43,516 nucleotides of DNA from a virus, in the IMG/VR virus record IMGVR_UViG_3300042869_001251, positions 1-43,516 of that record; one strand, written 5' to 3'. How positions within the stretch are numbered: the first letter of the stretch is position 1; every line of letters begins with the position of its first letter. Shown in pieces: positions 10,209 through 26,058 of this stretch. The notes below the pieces were generated by a model. It had not been told where the DNA came from and did no database searches. It was given only the letters and a program-made list of their open reading frames with translations. Position numbers and translations under genes: made by a program.

Positions 10209-13200
10209 ATGTCACAGGAAACTAATCTCAACGTCTCTCCATATTTTGATGATTTTGATGAAAATAACGACTACTATAAAGTTTTGTTTAAACCGGGATA
10301 TCCTATTCAAGCAAGAGAACTAACAACTCTACAATCAATTCTTCAAAATCAAGTAGAACAATACGGAAAGCATATTTTTAAGGAGGGTTCTGTTGTAATT
10401 CCCGGACAACTGAGATATGAAACTCCACTTTATGCTGTAGAAATTGCGGACTCATTCAATGGCGCTCCAATTTCTTTATATTTTGATCAACTTTTAGGTA
10501 AAAAACTAAGAGGTTCTGTAAGTGGTGTTACTGCAGAGGTAGTTTATCTTCTTAAAAATATAGATTCTGAAAGAAGAAATTATACGTTATACTTAAAATA
10601 TCTTCAAAGTGGTGGTGAAGATTTTACAAATAGAATTTTTCAAAGTGGCGAAACTCTAACATTAGAGACCTCACTTACATATGGTAACTTCGTAATCCAG
10701 GTCGGTCAGGGAGTCTGCAATACTATTACAACTAATGCAACATCAGAAGGTTCTGGCGTATCGGTAGCAGAAGGTGTTTATTTTGTTAGAGGAGTATTTG
10801 CAAGAGTATCTTCACAAACTATTCTTTTAGATCAATACTCAATTACTCCATCATATAAAGTTGGTTTTGATATTGTAGAAGAAATTATAACTTCCGATGA
10901 AGATGAAACTTTATTTGATAACGCTCAGGGATTTTCTAATTATGCTGCTCCAGGAGCAGATCGCTTTAAAATTTCGTTAGAACTTTCTAAACGAACACTT
11001 GATGACTTAGAAACTGATAATTTTGTAGAAATTTTAAGAGTTGATCAAGGAGTACCACAATTTTTTAATAAAAATTCACAGTATAATTTAATTCGTGATG
11101 AGTTAGCAAGAAGAACTTTTGATGAATCTGGTAATTATTTTATAAAACCATTTACTCTATTTGTGAGAGATAGTTTAAATGATGGAGTTTTAAATGATGG
11201 AATTTATTTTAAAGATCAACAAACAGTTCAAGGAAATAATCCATCGGAAGATTTGATGGTTTATCAGATTGGACCAGGTAAAGCATATGTGGGTGGATAT
11301 GATGTAGAAACAATTTCTCCAAGACTAATTGATGTTCCAAAACCAAGAACTACAAAAACTGTATCAAATCAAGTTATTCCATACAATGCCGGAACTTTAT
11401 TTGTTTTAAATAATGGTTATGGATCACCGACTTTAGGTATTGGCACAGATGCAACAGTAAGTTTGATGAATTCTCGTATTGGAGAGTCCGCAAGTGTTGC
11501 TACAGGAACAACCATTGGTCTCGCAAGAATTTATGATTTTATACCAGAAAGTGATTACGTTGATGATACGAGTCGGTTAAATTTAAGATTATTTGATATT
11601 CAAACTTATGCAATAATTGGTCTTACTACATCTTTTGGTGGCAGTGGATTATCTGTTCCTTGCTTTATTGAGGGTAAAAAAAGTAGGGCATCAGGTCACC
11701 TAAAAGAATCAGTTTCTGCTGGTTCTACAACACTAACATTATACGAAACTACTGGTGATTTTTTAGAAAATGAACAAATTATTATCAATGGTATAGATAA
11801 TGGAAGACTAATTAAATCAGTAACTGATTACAATCTTTCCGACGTAAAATCAGTTTATTATAAAGTAGGAATTAATACATTTAATGCAGATTTAGTACTT
11901 TCCAACGGATCTTATATTGCAAAACCAGGAACTACATTTAGAGTAAACAATGGTGTAGTGTCTGCAGGTTTGGGTGATATATTTACAAAAATTGTAACGG
12001 TTGGTAATATAGTTTCTTATGCAAATACTACTTTTACCGGCGATCCAATTTATAATAGAGTAACTGCAGTTGGATCTGGTGGAACATCGTTTACAATTAC
12101 AGGTATTACTACAGTTACTGGAATTTGCAATGGCATTCTTCCATCGGGATCTTTTGAAGTTACAAATATAATTAAAGTTACACCGTCAGTTGATTCTACA
12201 AATTCATCACTCTTAACTCTTCTTAATTCGGATAACGTATCCTCAGTCAATTTTCAGGATAATGAGGTTATTCAAAGGCGCACATACAATGTTGCATCTT
12301 TCTCCGAAAGTTCAATTTCAGTTGCAATTGATCCTTCAGATATTGATATTTTCTTTCATTCTTTTGATGAAGATAGATTTGTAATTGCTTATTCAGATGG
12401 AAGCATTGAACCATTAAGATTTGATCAATATAATATTAGTCTTGATGGTAAAACATTAACTTTTTATGGATTAACCAAATCAAGCGGAACAAATGCAATT
12501 GTTACTGCAACGGTAAGAAATATTCAACCAAGCTCAAAATCCAAAAAGTTCAATAAAGTTTCATCTTTAGTTGTATCAAATTCCAGTCTTGTAAATTCTG
12601 GAGTTGGAACCACAACTTTAAAAGATGGATTAAATTACAGCAACGTTTATGGAACAAGAGTTCAAGATAAAATTATTAGTTTAAATATTCCAGATGCAGT
12701 AAGAGTTCTTGCTGTATATGAATCCAATAATACATTAGAACCTGCATTACCAACTTTACTTATATCAGGAAATCCAAATAACAATCAAAATTTTGTAGTT
12801 GGAGAATATATTGAGGGACAAAATTCTGGTGCGGTAGCAATCATAGTTAGAAAAGTAGATATCAATAAGTTGGAGTATGTATATTTAAATACAATTCAAT
12901 TCTCTGTTGGTGAACTTATTGTTGGAAATGAGTCTACAGAGGAAGCGATTGTTTCTTCGAAGACCTTAGGTGATAAAAACATTACACAAAACTTTATTTT
13001 TGATGATGGTCAGAGAGATACTTTCTATGATTATTCGAGAATTATAAGAAAAAGTAATATTCAGGAACCATCAAAAAAACTTAAAATTATATTCCAAAAT
13101 TATACAATTGATTCATCAGACACTGGTGAGTTTATTACAGCAAATAGTTATAATATAAGTAATTTTAAATATGATGTTTCTTCATATGAAAATTCGAGAT

Positions 13201-21744: not shown

Positions 21745-22194
21745 ATGCCTAAAAAATTTGATAAATTAGATGAAGTCTTCAATGTTACTGGGGAGATTGT
21801 TCCCCAAGAACTTGAACCTAAACTATTAAAAAATGTTCCTTTAGAAGATACGATTGACACTAAAAGTATTTTAAGTGACATAAAAAAGGACTACGAATAC
21901 GCTCGTGGCAATATGTACTCTATTATTGAAAAAGGACAAGAAGCATTAAATGGTATTTTAGAATTAGCACAGGAAACTGAGTCTCCGAGAGCGTATGAAG
22001 TTGTTGGACAACTAATTAAAAATGTTTCGGATTCTACCGAGAAATTGATTGAATTACAAAAAAAACTAAGAGATTTGGAAGAAGTAAAAACTTCAAGTGG
22101 ACCTACAAATGTAACTAATGCCCTCTTTTTTGGATCAACTACGGAGTTATCAAAAATATTAAAGGGTAGATTAAATAACCAAGATAATAAATAG
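21745..22194 (+). CDS. gp16: Terminase small subunit gp16-like
   Basis: A 149-aa protein close in size to T4 gp16 (164 aa). It regulates the packaging ATPase and is thought to form rings that act on DNA during initiation. Residues about 45-115 are strongly helical with a central coiled-coil (SDSTEKLIELQKKLRDLEEV). The C-terminus (TNALFFGSTTELSKILKG) resembles the T4 gp16 ending with its 'VFVGST.EL.K.L' pattern. Its stop codon overlaps a late promoter octamer for the next gene. Unusually, the large terminase does not follow directly; a 650-aa gene separates them. Confidence 0.85.
   Translation: MPKKFDKLDEVFNVTGEIVPQELEPKLLKNVPLEDTIDTKSILSDIKKDYEYARGNMYSIIEKGQEALNGILELAQETESPRAYEVVGQLIKNVSDSTEKLIELQKKLRDLEEVKTSSGPTNVTNALFFGSTTELSKILKGRLNNQDNK
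22186..22193 (+). promoter_or_regulatory. T4-type late promoter octamer overlapping the gp16 stop
   Basis: AATAAATA (7 of 8 to the T4 late consensus) ends inside the gp16 TAG stop (22192-22194). Transcription would begin near 22199, only about 3 nt before the next ATG at 22202, so the mRNA would be practically leaderless. Confidence 0.55.
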
Positions 22195-22201
22195 AAATAA
22201 A

Positions 22202-24154
22202 ATGCTATCACAAGCAGTAATTGAATTAGAAAATAAGTTATTAGAGTTATCTAATGTTTCATATGATTCGATAGATTCTCTTATGAGAAAAATTATGAAA
22301 TCTTATGATATTACTGCTGAAGAACTTCATAATGCTTTTAAATCTAAAAACAAAAAAACACCAGACAATTGGGTTAAAGAAAAAATGAAAAAACTTCAAG
22401 AAGACCATAAAGAAATTGCATCTGGTAAAAAGCAAGATGATGAAGGATATATGGCAAGAAATGAATTAGATTCAATTGAAAGAGCAATTAAAAATCTACG
22501 TCAAAGTATAAAGTCCGGAAATCAGCAACTTCCTGCCTGGGTTCAATCCAAAATTACTAAGGCTGCTGATTATATTGATACTGCCGCTGAGTATCTTGAA
22601 AGTGATGAATCTGTTGATGAAGGTATTAATTTAGATAGTTTAAACATAGATCCAAAAGTAATTAGAGCGAGTGCAAAATCTCAAAAAATAAGAAATCTTT
22701 CACAAAAAGGATCTACTACTGGTGAACGGGAAGCAGCGCAAGGTAAAAGAAGTGGTCCAAGTATTCCTTTAGTTAAACCTGGAGATACTAGTATAAGAAA
22801 TATTAATGCTGAATACAAACCATCCTTAGTAGAAAAAATTCTTGGTGAAGAGAAGTGTGGAAAGGGAATGTACTGGTGCAATACTGATGAAGTGTGTAAA
22901 CCACTTCCAAAAGGAATGAAAGTTTCGGGACAAAAAATAAAACCAACTGAAGTAGGTATTGGTAAACCGGTTGCTGAGGGTTCTTGCACCCACACTAAAA
23001 AAGGAAAGTCTTGTCCTATTCATGGAACAGATCAATGCCCAATGAGTGAAGAGAAAGACCCTAAAGGACCAGTGAAATCTTACAAATCTCCAGAAGAACT
23101 TGCTAAAAAGCATGGAATATCAGTAGAAGAAATTAAAAAGCAATTAGAAATTGGAACTAAGGTTGAATTTGAACATACCACCAGTAAGAGTTCAGCAAGA
23201 ATTACTGCACTTCAACATTTGGATGAAAAACCAGATTATTATACAAAATTGAAAAAAATGGAGACTCAAAAAGAAAGCAATACAGTAAGAGATGCAAATG
23301 GAAACGTATATGCGGAATTTATTGACATAATTAAATCTGGAAGTATTAAAGAAGAAAATCCTTGCTGGAAAGGATACAAGCAAGTTGGAACAAAAAAGAA
23401 AGGTGGAAAAGAAGTACCTAATTGTGTTTCGGTCAAAGAAGAGAATATAGATGAGGCAGTAAGACTTCAAGCACAAACTGGAAACAATATTTTTGTTACA
23501 TTATCTTGGAGAGGAAAATACTATACTATGCAATTATTCTTCCCCCAATCTAAAATTCCAAGCAGAATAGAAGTTTCTGATGAAATGCAAAAAATTTATC
23601 CAGGTTCTAAAGTAGTTACTTATCGAGTTGCCGATTTTAAACCCGGAGAACCTATAATTTATGCATATAGAGGTGGTGATGGGGGAAAGTTAGGACCTAA
23701 TAGAAATTATGTAAAACCCATGGGTGAACAAAAAGAAATAGAACCTCCGAGAGAAAGGGTTGGTGCTTTAACTGACATTAATATTCCTCAATCTGAACGT
23801 GAATCCGCAAGGCAAAGAACACTTGCTAAAGCAGCAGCAAAGAGAAAAGAACGTGAAATGAAAGAAGAGGTTGAAATATTAGAGGGAAAAAAGTCTGAGA
23901 TGCCATGCAACAAACCAAAAGCACAAGCAGTTGGAGATTCTGAGACTGGAAAATCTCACGTAGTCAAAGCGTGTTCTAACGGTCAAGAAAAACTTATTCG
24001 TTTTGGTCAACGAGGAGTAAAAGGTTCCCCAAAGAAAAAAGGGGAATCTAAGGAATATGCAAGCAGAAGGAATAGATTTCAAACTAGACACGCAAAAAAT
24101 ATAGCAAAAGGAAAAATGTCTGCTGCCTGGTGGTCTAACAAAATAAAATGGTAG
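22202..24154 (+). CDS. Modular Cys/His-containing protein of unknown function between gp16 and gp17
   Basis: A 650-aa, Lys/Glu-rich protein whose function I do not recognise. Visible modules: residues 1-140, helical (MLSQAVIELENKLLELSNVS...); 219-232, CGKGMYWCNTDEVC; 262-279, a Cys/His cluster C262-H264-C271-H274-C279 that could bind zinc; 388-408, CWKGYKQVG...VPNC; about 420-510, a beta-rich domain (VTLSWRGKYYTMQLFFP...); and about 564-650, a basic end (SEMPCNKPKAQ...RRNRFQTRHAKN...AAWWSNKIKW). I recall the last four as recurrent modules in marine phage proteins, but no activity is established for them. The gene starts 8 nt after gp16 under its own late promoter, so a role in the virion or in packaging is plausible. 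T4 has no counterpart between genes 16 and 17. Confidence 0.85.
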   Translation: MLSQAVIELENKLLELSNVSYDSIDSLMRKIMKSYDITAEELHNAFKSKNKKTPDNWVKEKMKKLQEDHKEIASGKKQDDEGYMARNELDSIERAIKNLRQSIKSGNQQLPAWVQSKITKAADYIDTAAEYLESDESVDEGINLDSLNIDPKVIRASAKSQKIRNLSQKGSTTGEREAAQGKRSGPSIPLVKPGDTSIRNINAEYKPSLVEKILGEEKCGKGMYWCNTDEVCKPLPKGMKVSGQKIKPTEVGIGKPVAEGSCTHTKKGKSCPIHGTDQCPMSEEKDPKGPVKSYKSPEELAKKHGISVEEIKKQLEIGTKVEFEHTTSKSSARITALQHLDEKPDYYTKLKKMETQKESNTVRDANGNVYAEFIDIIKSGSIKEENPCWKGYKQVGTKKKGGKEVPNCVSVKEENIDEAVRLQAQTGNNIFVTLSWRGKYYTMQLFFPQSKIPSRIEVSDEMQKIYPGSKVVTYRVADFKPGEPIIYAYRGGDGGKLGPNRNYVKPMGEQKEIEPPRERVGALTDINIPQSERESARQRTLAKAAAKRKEREMKEEVEILEGKKSEMPCNKPKAQAVGDSETGKSHVVKACSNGQEKLIRFGQRGVKGSPKKKGESKEYASRRNRFQTRHAKNIAKGKMSAAWWSNKIKW

Positions 24155-24166
24155 TGTAATTAAATT

Positions 24167-25828
24167 ATGTCTGAAGAACACTATCTTGGTAATCCACTTC
24201 TTAAGAAAGCAAATACCAAAATTGAATTTACAGAAGATCAAGTACTTGAGTGGATTAAGTGTGCTGAAGATCCAGTATACTTCGCTAAAAAATATATAAA
24301 AATAACTACACTTGATTATGGATTATCTGATTTTGATATGTATCCATTTCAAGAAGAAATGGTGGATACCTTTCATAAAAATAGATTTACTATATGTAAG
24401 TTACCTAGGCAGTCAGGAAAAAGCACAGTTGTAGTTTCATATCTTCTTCATTATGCAATCTTTAATGATAATACTAATATTGCAATTCTTGCAAACAAAG
24501 CAAACACCGCCAGAGACCTTCTGACGCGCCTTCAAACTGGTTATGAGAATTTGCCCAAGTGGTTACAACAAGGCGTCTTGTCGTGGAACAAGGGGTCCTT
24601 AGAACTTGAGAATAAGTCCAGGATAACGGCCGCATCTACTTCAGCATCTTCTATTCGTGGTGGAACTTATAATATTATTTTTCTGGACGAATTTGCGTTT
24701 GTTCCAAATACAGTCGCAGATAATTTCTTTAGTTCAGTTTATCCTGTAATTACGTCAGGCAAATCTTCTAAGGTTATTGTCGTAAGCACTCCATACGGTA
24801 TGAATCATTTCTACCGTCTCTGGGATGACGCACAAAAGAGTAGAAATGATTATATTCCAATTGAAGTTCATTGGACTGATGTACCGGGAAGAGATGAAGA
24901 GTTTAAAAGATTAACTATTTCAAATACATCAGAATCCCAATGGAGACAAGAATTTGAATGTTTATTCTTAGGTTCATCAGATACCCTTATATCTGGACCA
25001 ATATTAAATAGATTGGTATTTGATACTCCAAAGACTTCAAGTGCTGGTTTAGATGTTTATGAAGACCCTCAGGAAGATCATACATACGTTGTTACGGTGG
25101 ATGTTGCTCGTGGAGTAGAAAAAGATTATTCGGCTTTCGTAGTAATTGATGTATCACAATTTCCACACAAAGTTGTAGGAAAGTATAGAAATAATAAAAT
25201 AAGACCAATATTATTTCCTCAAATTATAAAAGAAGTTGCACTTTCTTACAATAAAGCATATGTTCTATGTGAAGTAAATGATGTTGGAGATCAGGTAGCC
25301 GCAGGTCTTCATTACGACTTAGAATATTCAAATCTTCTTATGAGTTCTATGAGAGGTAGAGCAGGGCAAATATTGGGTCAAGGTTTTTCTGGGAAAAAAG
25401 TTCAACTTGGCGTAAAAATGTCAAAAACAACTAAAAAAGTTGGTTGTTTGAATTTAAAAACTCTCATAGAAGATAATAAATTGACTTTTACCGATTTTGA
25501 AATTATCAATGAATTAACTACGTTTGTTCAAAAAGCAAATTCATTTGAAGCAGAAGATGGAAGAAATGATGATCTTGTAATGTGTTTGGTAATGTATTCT
25601 TGGTTAATTCTTCAAGATTATTTCAAAGAACTTACCGATCAAGATATTAGAAAACGAATCTATGAAGAACAAAAGAATCAAGTAGAGCAAGATATGTCTC
25701 CTTTCGGATTTATTGTTGATGGAGTGAATAATGAGGACACATTTGTAGATAAAGATGGAGATAGATGGTTCACTGACGAATATGGCGACAAGCAATCGGA
25801 ATTTTCTTATATGTGGAATTCTTGGTAA
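24167..25828 (+). CDS. gp17: Terminase large subunit gp17 (packaging ATPase-nuclease)
   Basis: A 553-aa motor protein (T4 gp17 is 610 aa) that translocates DNA into the prohead and cuts the concatemer. The ATPase domain has an adenine-binding Q region (YPFQEEMV), Walker A PRQSGKS (residues 80-86), Walker B IIFLDEF with the D-E pair at 174-175, and coupling motif VVSTPYG (206-211). The RNase H-like nuclease domain shows its acidic residues in VTVDVARG (D312), LCEVND (E369 region) and GRNDDLVM (D468-D469), equivalent to the T4 D-E-D triad. The gene begins 12 nt after the 650-aa gene and overlaps the next one by TAATG. Confidence 0.97.
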   Translation: MSEEHYLGNPLLKKANTKIEFTEDQVLEWIKCAEDPVYFAKKYIKITTLDYGLSDFDMYPFQEEMVDTFHKNRFTICKLPRQSGKSTVVVSYLLHYAIFNDNTNIAILANKANTARDLLTRLQTGYENLPKWLQQGVLSWNKGSLELENKSRITAASTSASSIRGGTYNIIFLDEFAFVPNTVADNFFSSVYPVITSGKSSKVIVVSTPYGMNHFYRLWDDAQKSRNDYIPIEVHWTDVPGRDEEFKRLTISNTSESQWRQEFECLFLGSSDTLISGPILNRLVFDTPKTSSAGLDVYEDPQEDHTYVVTVDVARGVEKDYSAFVVIDVSQFPHKVVGKYRNNKIRPILFPQIIKEVALSYNKAYVLCEVNDVGDQVAAGLHYDLEYSNLLMSSMRGRAGQILGQGFSGKKVQLGVKMSKTTKKVGCLNLKTLIEDNKLTFTDFEIINELTTFVQKANSFEAEDGRNDDLVMCLVMYSWLILQDYFKELTDQDIRKRIYEEQKNQVEQDMSPFGFIVDGVNNEDTFVDKDGDRWFTDEYGDKQSEFSYMWNSW

Positions 25829-26058
25829 TGAATTTAGATAATCATTTAAGTTTTGAGCACTTATTTTTGTATGAAAGAAAATGTAAAAATTGTAATCAGA
25901 CTAAAAATTTAATTGATGAATTTTATAGAACTAGAAAAGATAGAGGTCATGTTGCATCTTCATATTCATATGAGTGTAAAGAATGCACCAAAAAACGAGT
26001 TATTATCTCAAGAAAGAATGTAATAATAGAAGTAAAATGGGAATATCCTGACTGGTAA
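25828..26058 (+). CDS. Small zinc-ribbon protein
   Basis: A 76-aa protein starting at the ATG that overlaps the gp17 stop (TAATG). An in-frame ATG at 25813 is less likely because it lies inside gp17. Two CxxC pairs are visible (CKNC near residue 21 and CKEC near residue 53), the classic arrangement of a zinc ribbon. A conserved middle reads EFYRTRKDRG, and a basic tail follows (KKRVIISRKN). Such proteins resemble the zinc-binding front part of some HNH nucleases, but no HNH catalytic residues follow, so a nuclease is not claimed. Coupling to gp17 suggests a packaging-related or accessory role. Confidence 0.72.
   Translation: MNLDNHLSFEHLFLYERKCKNCNQTKNLIDEFYRTRKDRGHVASSYSYECKECTKKRVIISRKNVIIEVKWEYPDW

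Follow-up and report, generated by a model that had tools for sequence, protein, structure and literature searches.

The 650-aa protein encoded at positions 22202-24154 of the viral DNA analyzed here (IMG/VR record IMGVR_UViG_3300042869_001251; the whole stretch of 43,516 nucleotides is referred to below as the window) is a chain of small modules, and we regard it, with a probability of roughly 0.55, as a low-copy, modular protein of the virus head interior. Judged by its sequence, it is a divergent member of the cyanophage family T4-GC119. Many of the proteins that make up cyanophage virions have no function assigned to them, and the gp16-gp17 interval, in which the gene is located, is one variable region. 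The gene and its neighbours are as follows.

22202..24154, + strand: 650-aa modular protein of divergent cyanophage T4-GC119 type, in the TerS-TerL interval
21745..22194, + strand: terminase small subunit TerS (gp16), upstream neighbour (PF11053, 2.7e-8; phrog_445, 2.9e-48)
24167..25828, + strand: terminase large subunit TerL (gp17), T4-type, downstream neighbour (PF03237, 4.5e-23)

The frame begins with ATG and is open throughout its 650 codons. Its surroundings form a head-neck-tail gene cluster, and its position falls within the gp15-gp17 span of the T4-like cyanophage head-neck operon. Since the protein is found with 99.5-100% identity in 4 further IMG/VR contigs and is conserved at 63-83% in about 10 additional ones, the frame is not an artefact. 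The protein contains 13.8% Lys and 9.7% Glu and has a net charge of +29, which is split between the last 87 residues (+16) and the other 563 (+13). Thus, the preliminary description of a Lys/Glu-rich protein lying between the two terminase genes was borne out by the open frame, the TerS and TerL matches and the conservation in other contigs. The same description treated the separation of genes 16 and 17 as exceptional, which it is not: the gp16-gp17 interval is a published insertion hot-spot of cyanophages, usually with extra genes (PMC3037559), and such genes were present in every inspected cyanophage region showing both terminase genes. They encode tail-fibre-like proteins, belong to metabolic cassettes or are simply small, and a single modular protein is often among their products. 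An insertion peculiar to this phage is ruled out by the known hot-spot, and, as the latter has already been published, the position of the gene is nothing new.

Eight modules joined by variable linkers were delimited in the protein; the linker preceding the last of them is listed as well.

22202..22375, + strand: YDSID, N-terminal helical module, aa 1-58 (profile, alignment)
22391..22609, + strand: HEL, helical module WVQSKITKAADYID (WVQSK), aa 64-136 (profile)
22823..22930, + strand: CGKG, Cys module CGKGMYWC-x5-C, aa 208-243 (C219, C226, C232; conserved Cys)
22982..23056, + strand: CHCH, C-H-C-H-C module, aa 261-285 (C262, H264, C271, H274, C279; putative zinc site)
23090..23266, + strand: DUF5661 (PF18905), helical, aa 297-355 (about 285-360; Pfam 5.7e-15)
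23357..23431, + strand: CWKGY, CWKGY-NC module, aa 386-410 (motif CWKGY..C at 388-408; profile)
23447..23665, + strand: WRGKYY module, aa 416-488 (predicted beta-beta-alpha-beta)
23672..23890, + strand: linker, aa 491-563 (alignment), with a candidate cleavage site ILE/G at aa 559-562
23891..24151, + strand: CTERM, basic C-terminal module (phrog_7595), aa 564-650, net charge +16 (profile)

The aligned relatives consist of near-identical blocks with linkers between them that differ in length and sequence. In the 20-row alignment, residues C219, C226 and C232 of the CGKG module and C262, H264, C271, H274 and C279 of the CHCH module were invariant or at least 90% conserved, and both modules present putative zinc-binding ligand sets. 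The DUF5661 match at aa 297-355 scored 55.9 bits at a Pfam gathering cut-off of 27, and the phrog_7595 profile covered aa 555-650 with its positions 3-96 of 96 (E 3.9e-25). The YDSID module also occurs in S-SCSM2R_117 and, weakly, in ORF137 of phage S-CREM2, and the helical module at aa 64-136, which carries WVQSKITKAADYI, forms a separate 76-aa gene in one environmental contig (L191). All motifs named previously (CGKGMYWC..C at 219-232, C-H-C-H-C at 262-279, CWKGY..C at 388-408 and the basic tail at 564-650) were found in their places, and the WRGKYY domain is present with boundaries set here at aa 416-488. The earlier count of at least four modules stands insofar as every named one was recovered; it had missed three (YDSID at aa 1-58, the WVQSKITKAADYI module at aa 64-136 and DUF5661 at aa 297-355). 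Pairwise profile comparison (hhalign) among the 11 modules used in this work gave no pair above 15% probability and hence no mutual homology. Searches of Pfam, NCBIfam and PDB sequences for an enzyme returned DUF5661 alone above the cut-off and no relative of solved structure, and an enzyme identity was discarded on these grounds; a literature search found no paper naming DUF5661 or DUF6321.

The 11 module profiles, built locally, were searched against slot proteins from both isolates and environmental contigs, and the relatives proved to have common modules in permuted order. The order is CHCH-DUF5661-LRDWF-ACYHKV-HEL-CWKGY-WRGKYY-DUF6321 in the freshwater Synechococcus phage DSL-LC02, HEL-CGKG-LRDWF-ACYHKV-CWKGY-CHCH-WRGKYY-DUF6321 in S-SM2 and DUF5661-LRDWF-ACYHKV-CGKG-CHCH-HEL-CWKGY-WRGKYY-CTERM in the environmental contig L026. 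The published members of the T4-GC119 cluster are SSM2_109 of S-SM2, SSM1_115 of S-SM1 and PSSM2_123 of P-SSM2; the HEL, CGKG, CHCH, CWKGY and WRGKYY profiles of the window protein all match SSM2_109 with E 2.3e-9 or better, and it is on these five modules in common that the family assignment is based. The window protein resembles T4-GC119 and the slot proteins of S-SCSM1, Bellamy, S-B43 and DSL-LC02 in its gene neighbourhood and beads-on-a-string design, but it differs from them in module order and in lacking LRDWF, ACYHKV and DUF6321, instead of which it possesses YDSID, DUF5661 and the phrog_7595 C-terminal module. Indeed, the DUF6321 profile gave no match to the window protein, whose C-terminal place is taken by phrog_7595. 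DUF5872 (PF19197) and DUF6321 (PF19846) are families of the same module toolkit, both missing from the window protein. The claim that proteins of other marine phages contain these modules, with no activity assigned to them, is thus supported by the profiles and by the search for fusions and contexts described below.

Several minor observations concern the same toolkit. ACYHKV and LRDWF jointly match DUF5872 (PF19197) in a gene at L217:5036-5542 (+ strand), just downstream of a portal-CTERM fusion. In many cyanophages, a conserved WRGKYY paralogue of about 105 aa (MKSFxxFLxESVxI..) directly follows the modular gene (L038:4409-4729, L039:5082-5402, L042:4114-4431, L053:6800-7111). The modular protein of Bellamy (gene 123, L036:3131-4987) has an entire DUF192 domain (PF02643, 1.3e-26) inserted at aa 247-349, and SSM2_109 of S-SM2 has a stretch similar to this insert.

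Relatives of the protein have been recorded in purified virions. The virion proteome of S-CREM2 includes ORF136 (8 unique peptides), ORF137 (4) and ORF160 (7) (PMC10665884). According to our analysis, ORF136 and ORF137 are located between TerS and TerL, ORF137 consists of WRGKYY and DUF6321, ORF160 consists of LRDWF, CWKGY and ACYHKV, and the last two, which are the only strong module proteins of the S-CREM2 genome, both appear in the mass spectrometry table. The virion proteins of S-SCSM1 were also determined by mass spectrometry (PMC9602691); in its sequence record the six-module protein SSCSM1_29 (including CGKG, CWKGY and WRGKYY) is labelled 'virion protein' and the 106-aa WRGKYY paralogue SSCSM1_30 is not, the labels being close to, though not identical with, the mass spectrometry list, as we counted 48 of them in the record against 45 in the paper (PMC9602691). 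A third line of evidence comes from the GenBank note 'similar to S-SM1 protein', which we checked in S-SM2, P-SSM2 and S-SSM7. This note accompanies gp13-15, gp18-21, gp23, gp3, GC190 (a virion-detected cytidylyltransferase) and GC119, and is missing from gp16, gp17, uvsY, gp55, gp46 and gp43; we infer that it flags the virion proteins of S-SM1, GC119 among them. Module proteins are modestly enriched in virions (a rough binomial estimate on four module proteins in two proteomes gives about 0.03), and the modules that the virion-detected relatives have in common with the window protein are only a part of it, CTERM and DUF5661 not being among them. Taken together, the published and deposited data on relatives render the virion association of the 650-aa protein fairly well supported by analogy. 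Virion proteomes, though, mix head and tail proteins, and carry-over is possible at 4-8 peptides.

The placement inside the head comes from other viruses. CTERM was searched in environmental viral contigs, and the 80 best loci were inspected; mostly, these are stand-alone genes of 80-100 codons. In three contigs (L156, the same contig as L217; L218; and L219), a portal protein (PF06381, Phage_portal_3; 3e-58 in L156) ends in CTERM, which accounts for its final 78 residues; L218 and L219 have portals about 67-68% identical to that of L156. The phrog_220 profile, 'minor head protein and DNA pilot', spans the portal together with the CTERM-like tail, and the C-termini of the P22 portal form a barrel, putatively reaching inward into the capsid (PMC4992974). 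In Vibrio phage ICP1, CTERM follows the S78_2 prohead protease domain (PF14550, 6.6e-10) of ORF125, where it was recognized both by structure (81 columns matched at 2.2 A) and by a profile search of four proteins (3e-9); the gene lies in the head cluster between the portal and the major head protein. In both the portal fusions and ORF125, CTERM is a C-terminal appendage, as in the window protein, the carriers being a portal or a prohead protease instead. In the archaeal virus HSTV-1, CWKGY follows an S78_2 prohead protease whose gene immediately precedes that of the capsid, and DUF5661 stands behind a DUF2213 domain, two genes before the major capsid gene, in Vibrio phage VPs20. In contigs L123 and L144, small separate genes for CTERM, ACYHKV and LRDWF are grouped in the interval from capsid-like to tail genes, the identities of these surrounding genes being our own reading of the sequences, and at 29 of 217 CTERM loci, taken from two partly overlapping viral sets, another module is found in a separate frame within a few kb. 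Thus, three modules (CTERM, CWKGY and DUF5661) are placed with head-interior proteins in unrelated viruses, and from their fusion to portals and to prohead proteases or protease-like proteins we infer that the 650-aa protein is inside the head rather than on the tail. Such fusions give otherwise anonymous modules (phrog_7595, CWKGY, DUF5661) a link with the capsid interior.

The other contexts are varied. In Cr30, DUF5661 forms a 70-aa gene of its own, outside the head genes and close to a lytic enzyme; in CRP-810 and HTVC106P, the neighbours of CTERM are lysozyme or peptidase genes, and CTERM terminates a LysM-domain protein of more than 680 aa at L153:2-2047 (+ strand); therefore, a head-only role does not fit all contexts. 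The LysM-CTERM protein is possibly virion-associated and peptidoglycan-binding. The 57 CTERM matches in genome contigs came nearly all from metagenome-bin contigs and were read as phage; a bacterial or archaeal origin of CTERM was rejected, none of these matches being tied to a host gene.

It is unlikely, considering these data, that the protein is a tail- or neck-associated structural component such as a fibre accessory or chaperone: a tail-fibre-like gene does occupy the same slot in Bellamy, S-SM2, P-TIM68 and S-SCSM1, and virion detection by itself is equally compatible with head and tail, but the gene content of the slot is mixed, the modules were fused to portals and prohead proteases and never to tail proteins in the cases found, and their basic or Cys-rich character, together with disordered linkers, is not fibrous-looking. 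We likewise give little credence to a late cytoplasmic protein that takes over the host or binds nucleic acids and whose detection in the relatives would be carry-over. The hypervariable module content, including the DUF192 insertion in Bellamy_123, and the stand-alone DUF5661 gene of Cr30 would suit such a role, and the authors of the S-CREM2 and S-SCSM1 proteomes allow for carry-over of highly expressed proteins (PMC10665884, PMC9602691); against it speak the several peptides found for each of the two S-CREM2 module proteins, the portal and protease fusions and the synteny with head genes.

The preliminary description had offered an injected internal protein, a packaging cofactor and a DNA-condensing protein as candidates. 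The first has proved the best of the three, the slot relatives being reported as virion proteins and the modules being fused to portals and prohead proteases. A packaging (terminase) cofactor, with TerS, TerL or the portal as its partner, is rather improbable: the window and its close relatives have the gene in the TerS-TerL interval, and CTERM is found on portals, but in P-SSM2 the GC119 gene (PSSM2_123) comes after gp15 and before gp16, and in S-8S53 several kb separate the module gene from the TerL gene downstream of it, so that linkage to the terminase genes is not fixed, and position was all that had spoken for this candidate. Besides, module order and content vary freely, unlike what is expected of a motor cofactor, and the S-SM1 virion flag is carried by GC119 and not by gp16 or gp17.

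The third candidate was considered along with the predicted structure. In the model of the second half of the protein, the WRGKYY domain is beta-beta-alpha-beta (pLDDT about 63-77) and CTERM is a beta hairpin with helices (pLDDT mostly 84-93), the linker before CTERM being of low confidence. The model of residues 1-420 had a mean pLDDT of 49, and only the helical N-terminus and DUF5661 were usable; a poor model of this half is to be expected from modules on flexible linkers and a shallow alignment. Fold search against PDB gave no match at E<0.1 (the best, a halogenase fragment at E 0.5, is meaningless), and that against BFVD returned phage proteins only, including the S-SCSM1 'Virion protein' and ICP1 ORF125. 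DNA condensation through the basic C-terminal module retains from its original proposal the module itself, with net +16 in 87 residues and a well-folded model (pLDDT about 85-93), and nothing further: outside this module, the charge is a mild +13 over 563 residues, neither a DNA-binding fold nor a PDB match at E<0.1 was found, and the peptide counts of the relatives are low for a bulk condensing protein. As the principal role it is therefore highly improbable, and it may be one function of an internal protein.

The C-terminal module was further characterized by comparison of close relatives. Contig L026 agrees with L031-L033 in the order of all modules before the final one, where L026 has CTERM and L031-L033 have DUF6321; by sequence, this is a natural swap at the same C-terminal place. 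Homology between the two was ruled out (hhalign probability 4%). In seven relatives (L009, L010, L012, L014, L016, L017 and L023), CTERM is a separate downstream frame of 84-89 codons, and in L008 such a separate frame carries DUF6321 in place of CTERM. Most split relatives read EEVEILDEKK-stop, a short gap and MPCNKP at the junction, and in L016 the two frames overlap at TGA/GTG; the window junction reads EEVEILEGKKSEMPCNKP, without a stop codon. The stop codon of the first gene in the split relatives falls at the end of the stretch equivalent to the linker at aa 491-563. As read from these alignments, the window lineage lost the stop codon between the modular gene and CTERM, and the two genes are now one. 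Homologues of CTERM with about 39-64% identity are the small phrog_7595 proteins of marine podo- and siphoviruses (SIO1, P12053L, KBS-S-2A, CRP phages, HTVC106P), which, unlike the fused CTERM, are encoded by stand-alone genes of 80-100 aa in the late region, near head or lysis genes.

The T4 protease gp21 cleaves internal proteins and those of the head core after L/I-x-E (PMC9026906). The first [LIV]xE[GAS] motif of the window protein occurs at aa 138, and three candidate sites were noted in addition to that of the linker listed above.

22613..22621, + strand: candidate gp21-type site VDE/G, aa 138-141 (motif only)
22970..22978, + strand: candidate gp21-type site VAE/G, aa 257-260 (motif only)
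23447..23455, + strand: candidate gp21-type site IDE/A, aa 416-419 ([IV]xEA in most close relatives)

In 23 representative proteins, 11-residue windows at module starts were compared with linker windows. The motif [LIVM]xE[AGSK] occurred in 50 of 116 module-start windows (43%) versus 7% of linker windows, in sequences related to one another and with K at P1' added after inspection, and the reversed motif in 5% versus 9%. Plain [LIV]xE discriminated more weakly (59% versus 16%; reversed, 34% versus 18%). A position-free shuffle was set aside in favour of this position-specific test, because in it the reversed motif was enriched too and the count did not discriminate (56 versus 28 for [LIV]xE[GAS]; 48 versus 28 for the reversed motif). 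Cleavage by gp21 between the modules thus stays hypothetical.

With respect to mechanism, small, independently folding, mostly basic or Cys-rich modules, chained together, would join the prohead core before DNA packaging, and the completed head would hold the chain along with the DNA. At its end, the basic module (CTERM or DUF6321) would serve as an anchor to the scaffold, inner shell, portal crown or DNA, and gp21 could hypothetically cut after [LIVM]xE between the modules, releasing mini-proteins, some of which would enter the host. As a proposed low-copy protein of the capsid interior that differs among relatives and has candidate gp21-type motifs, the 650-aa protein is comparable to the internal head proteins of T4 (IPI-III, Alt); no family match to them was found, no N-terminal targeting peptide of 10-20 residues was identified, and the window protein has concatenated modules where they have one domain. 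Probably, it is a cyanomyovirus counterpart of the T4 internal proteins, alike in role and not in sequence. A further reading, possible but doubtful, makes it a virion polyprotein, in which head-interior mini-proteins, in other phages the products of separate adjacent genes or appendages of the portal and prohead protease, are strung together in cyanomyoviruses, enter the prohead as one unit, are cut by gp21 at [LIVM]xE between the modules before ejection into the host and are exchanged like cassettes. The fusions to portal and prohead protease turn a 'hypothetical protein' into testable claims on virion location, gp21 cutting and CTERM and DUF6321 as interchangeable anchors; if true, sequence by itself could suffice to recognize, through these modules, internal and perhaps injected proteins of many marine phages.

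Upstream of the gene, the following element had been taken as a sign of late expression from an mRNA with practically no leader.

22186..22193, + strand: octamer AATAAATA, made of the last codons of TerS and its stop

Comparison gave this suggestion little support: 5 of 15 relatives have no AATAAATA ahead of the modular gene, and ATAAATA, the core of the octamer, occurs in the window less often than expected (11 observed, about 30 from shuffling). A leaderless late mRNA is thus unestablished, and a late promoter at these positions is not supported. The Rfam search of the window gave no match.

Endonuclease-like sequences were observed around TerL. In the window, a small endonuclease VII-like frame at 25813-26058 (+ strand; phrog_4723) overlaps the end of TerL; it corresponds to the T4-GC282 type, which is mostly devoid of catalytic residues (PMC3037559). 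The TerL of a close relative (L007:6508-9231, + strand, 908 codons) contains an intein with a LAGLIDADG_2 endonuclease (PF14890, PF03161), and the surroundings of TerL in L026 (8136-11819, + strand) include a 137-aa Cys-rich, endonuclease VII-like frame and, at 10371-11582, a 404-aa one resembling an intein or endonuclease remnant.
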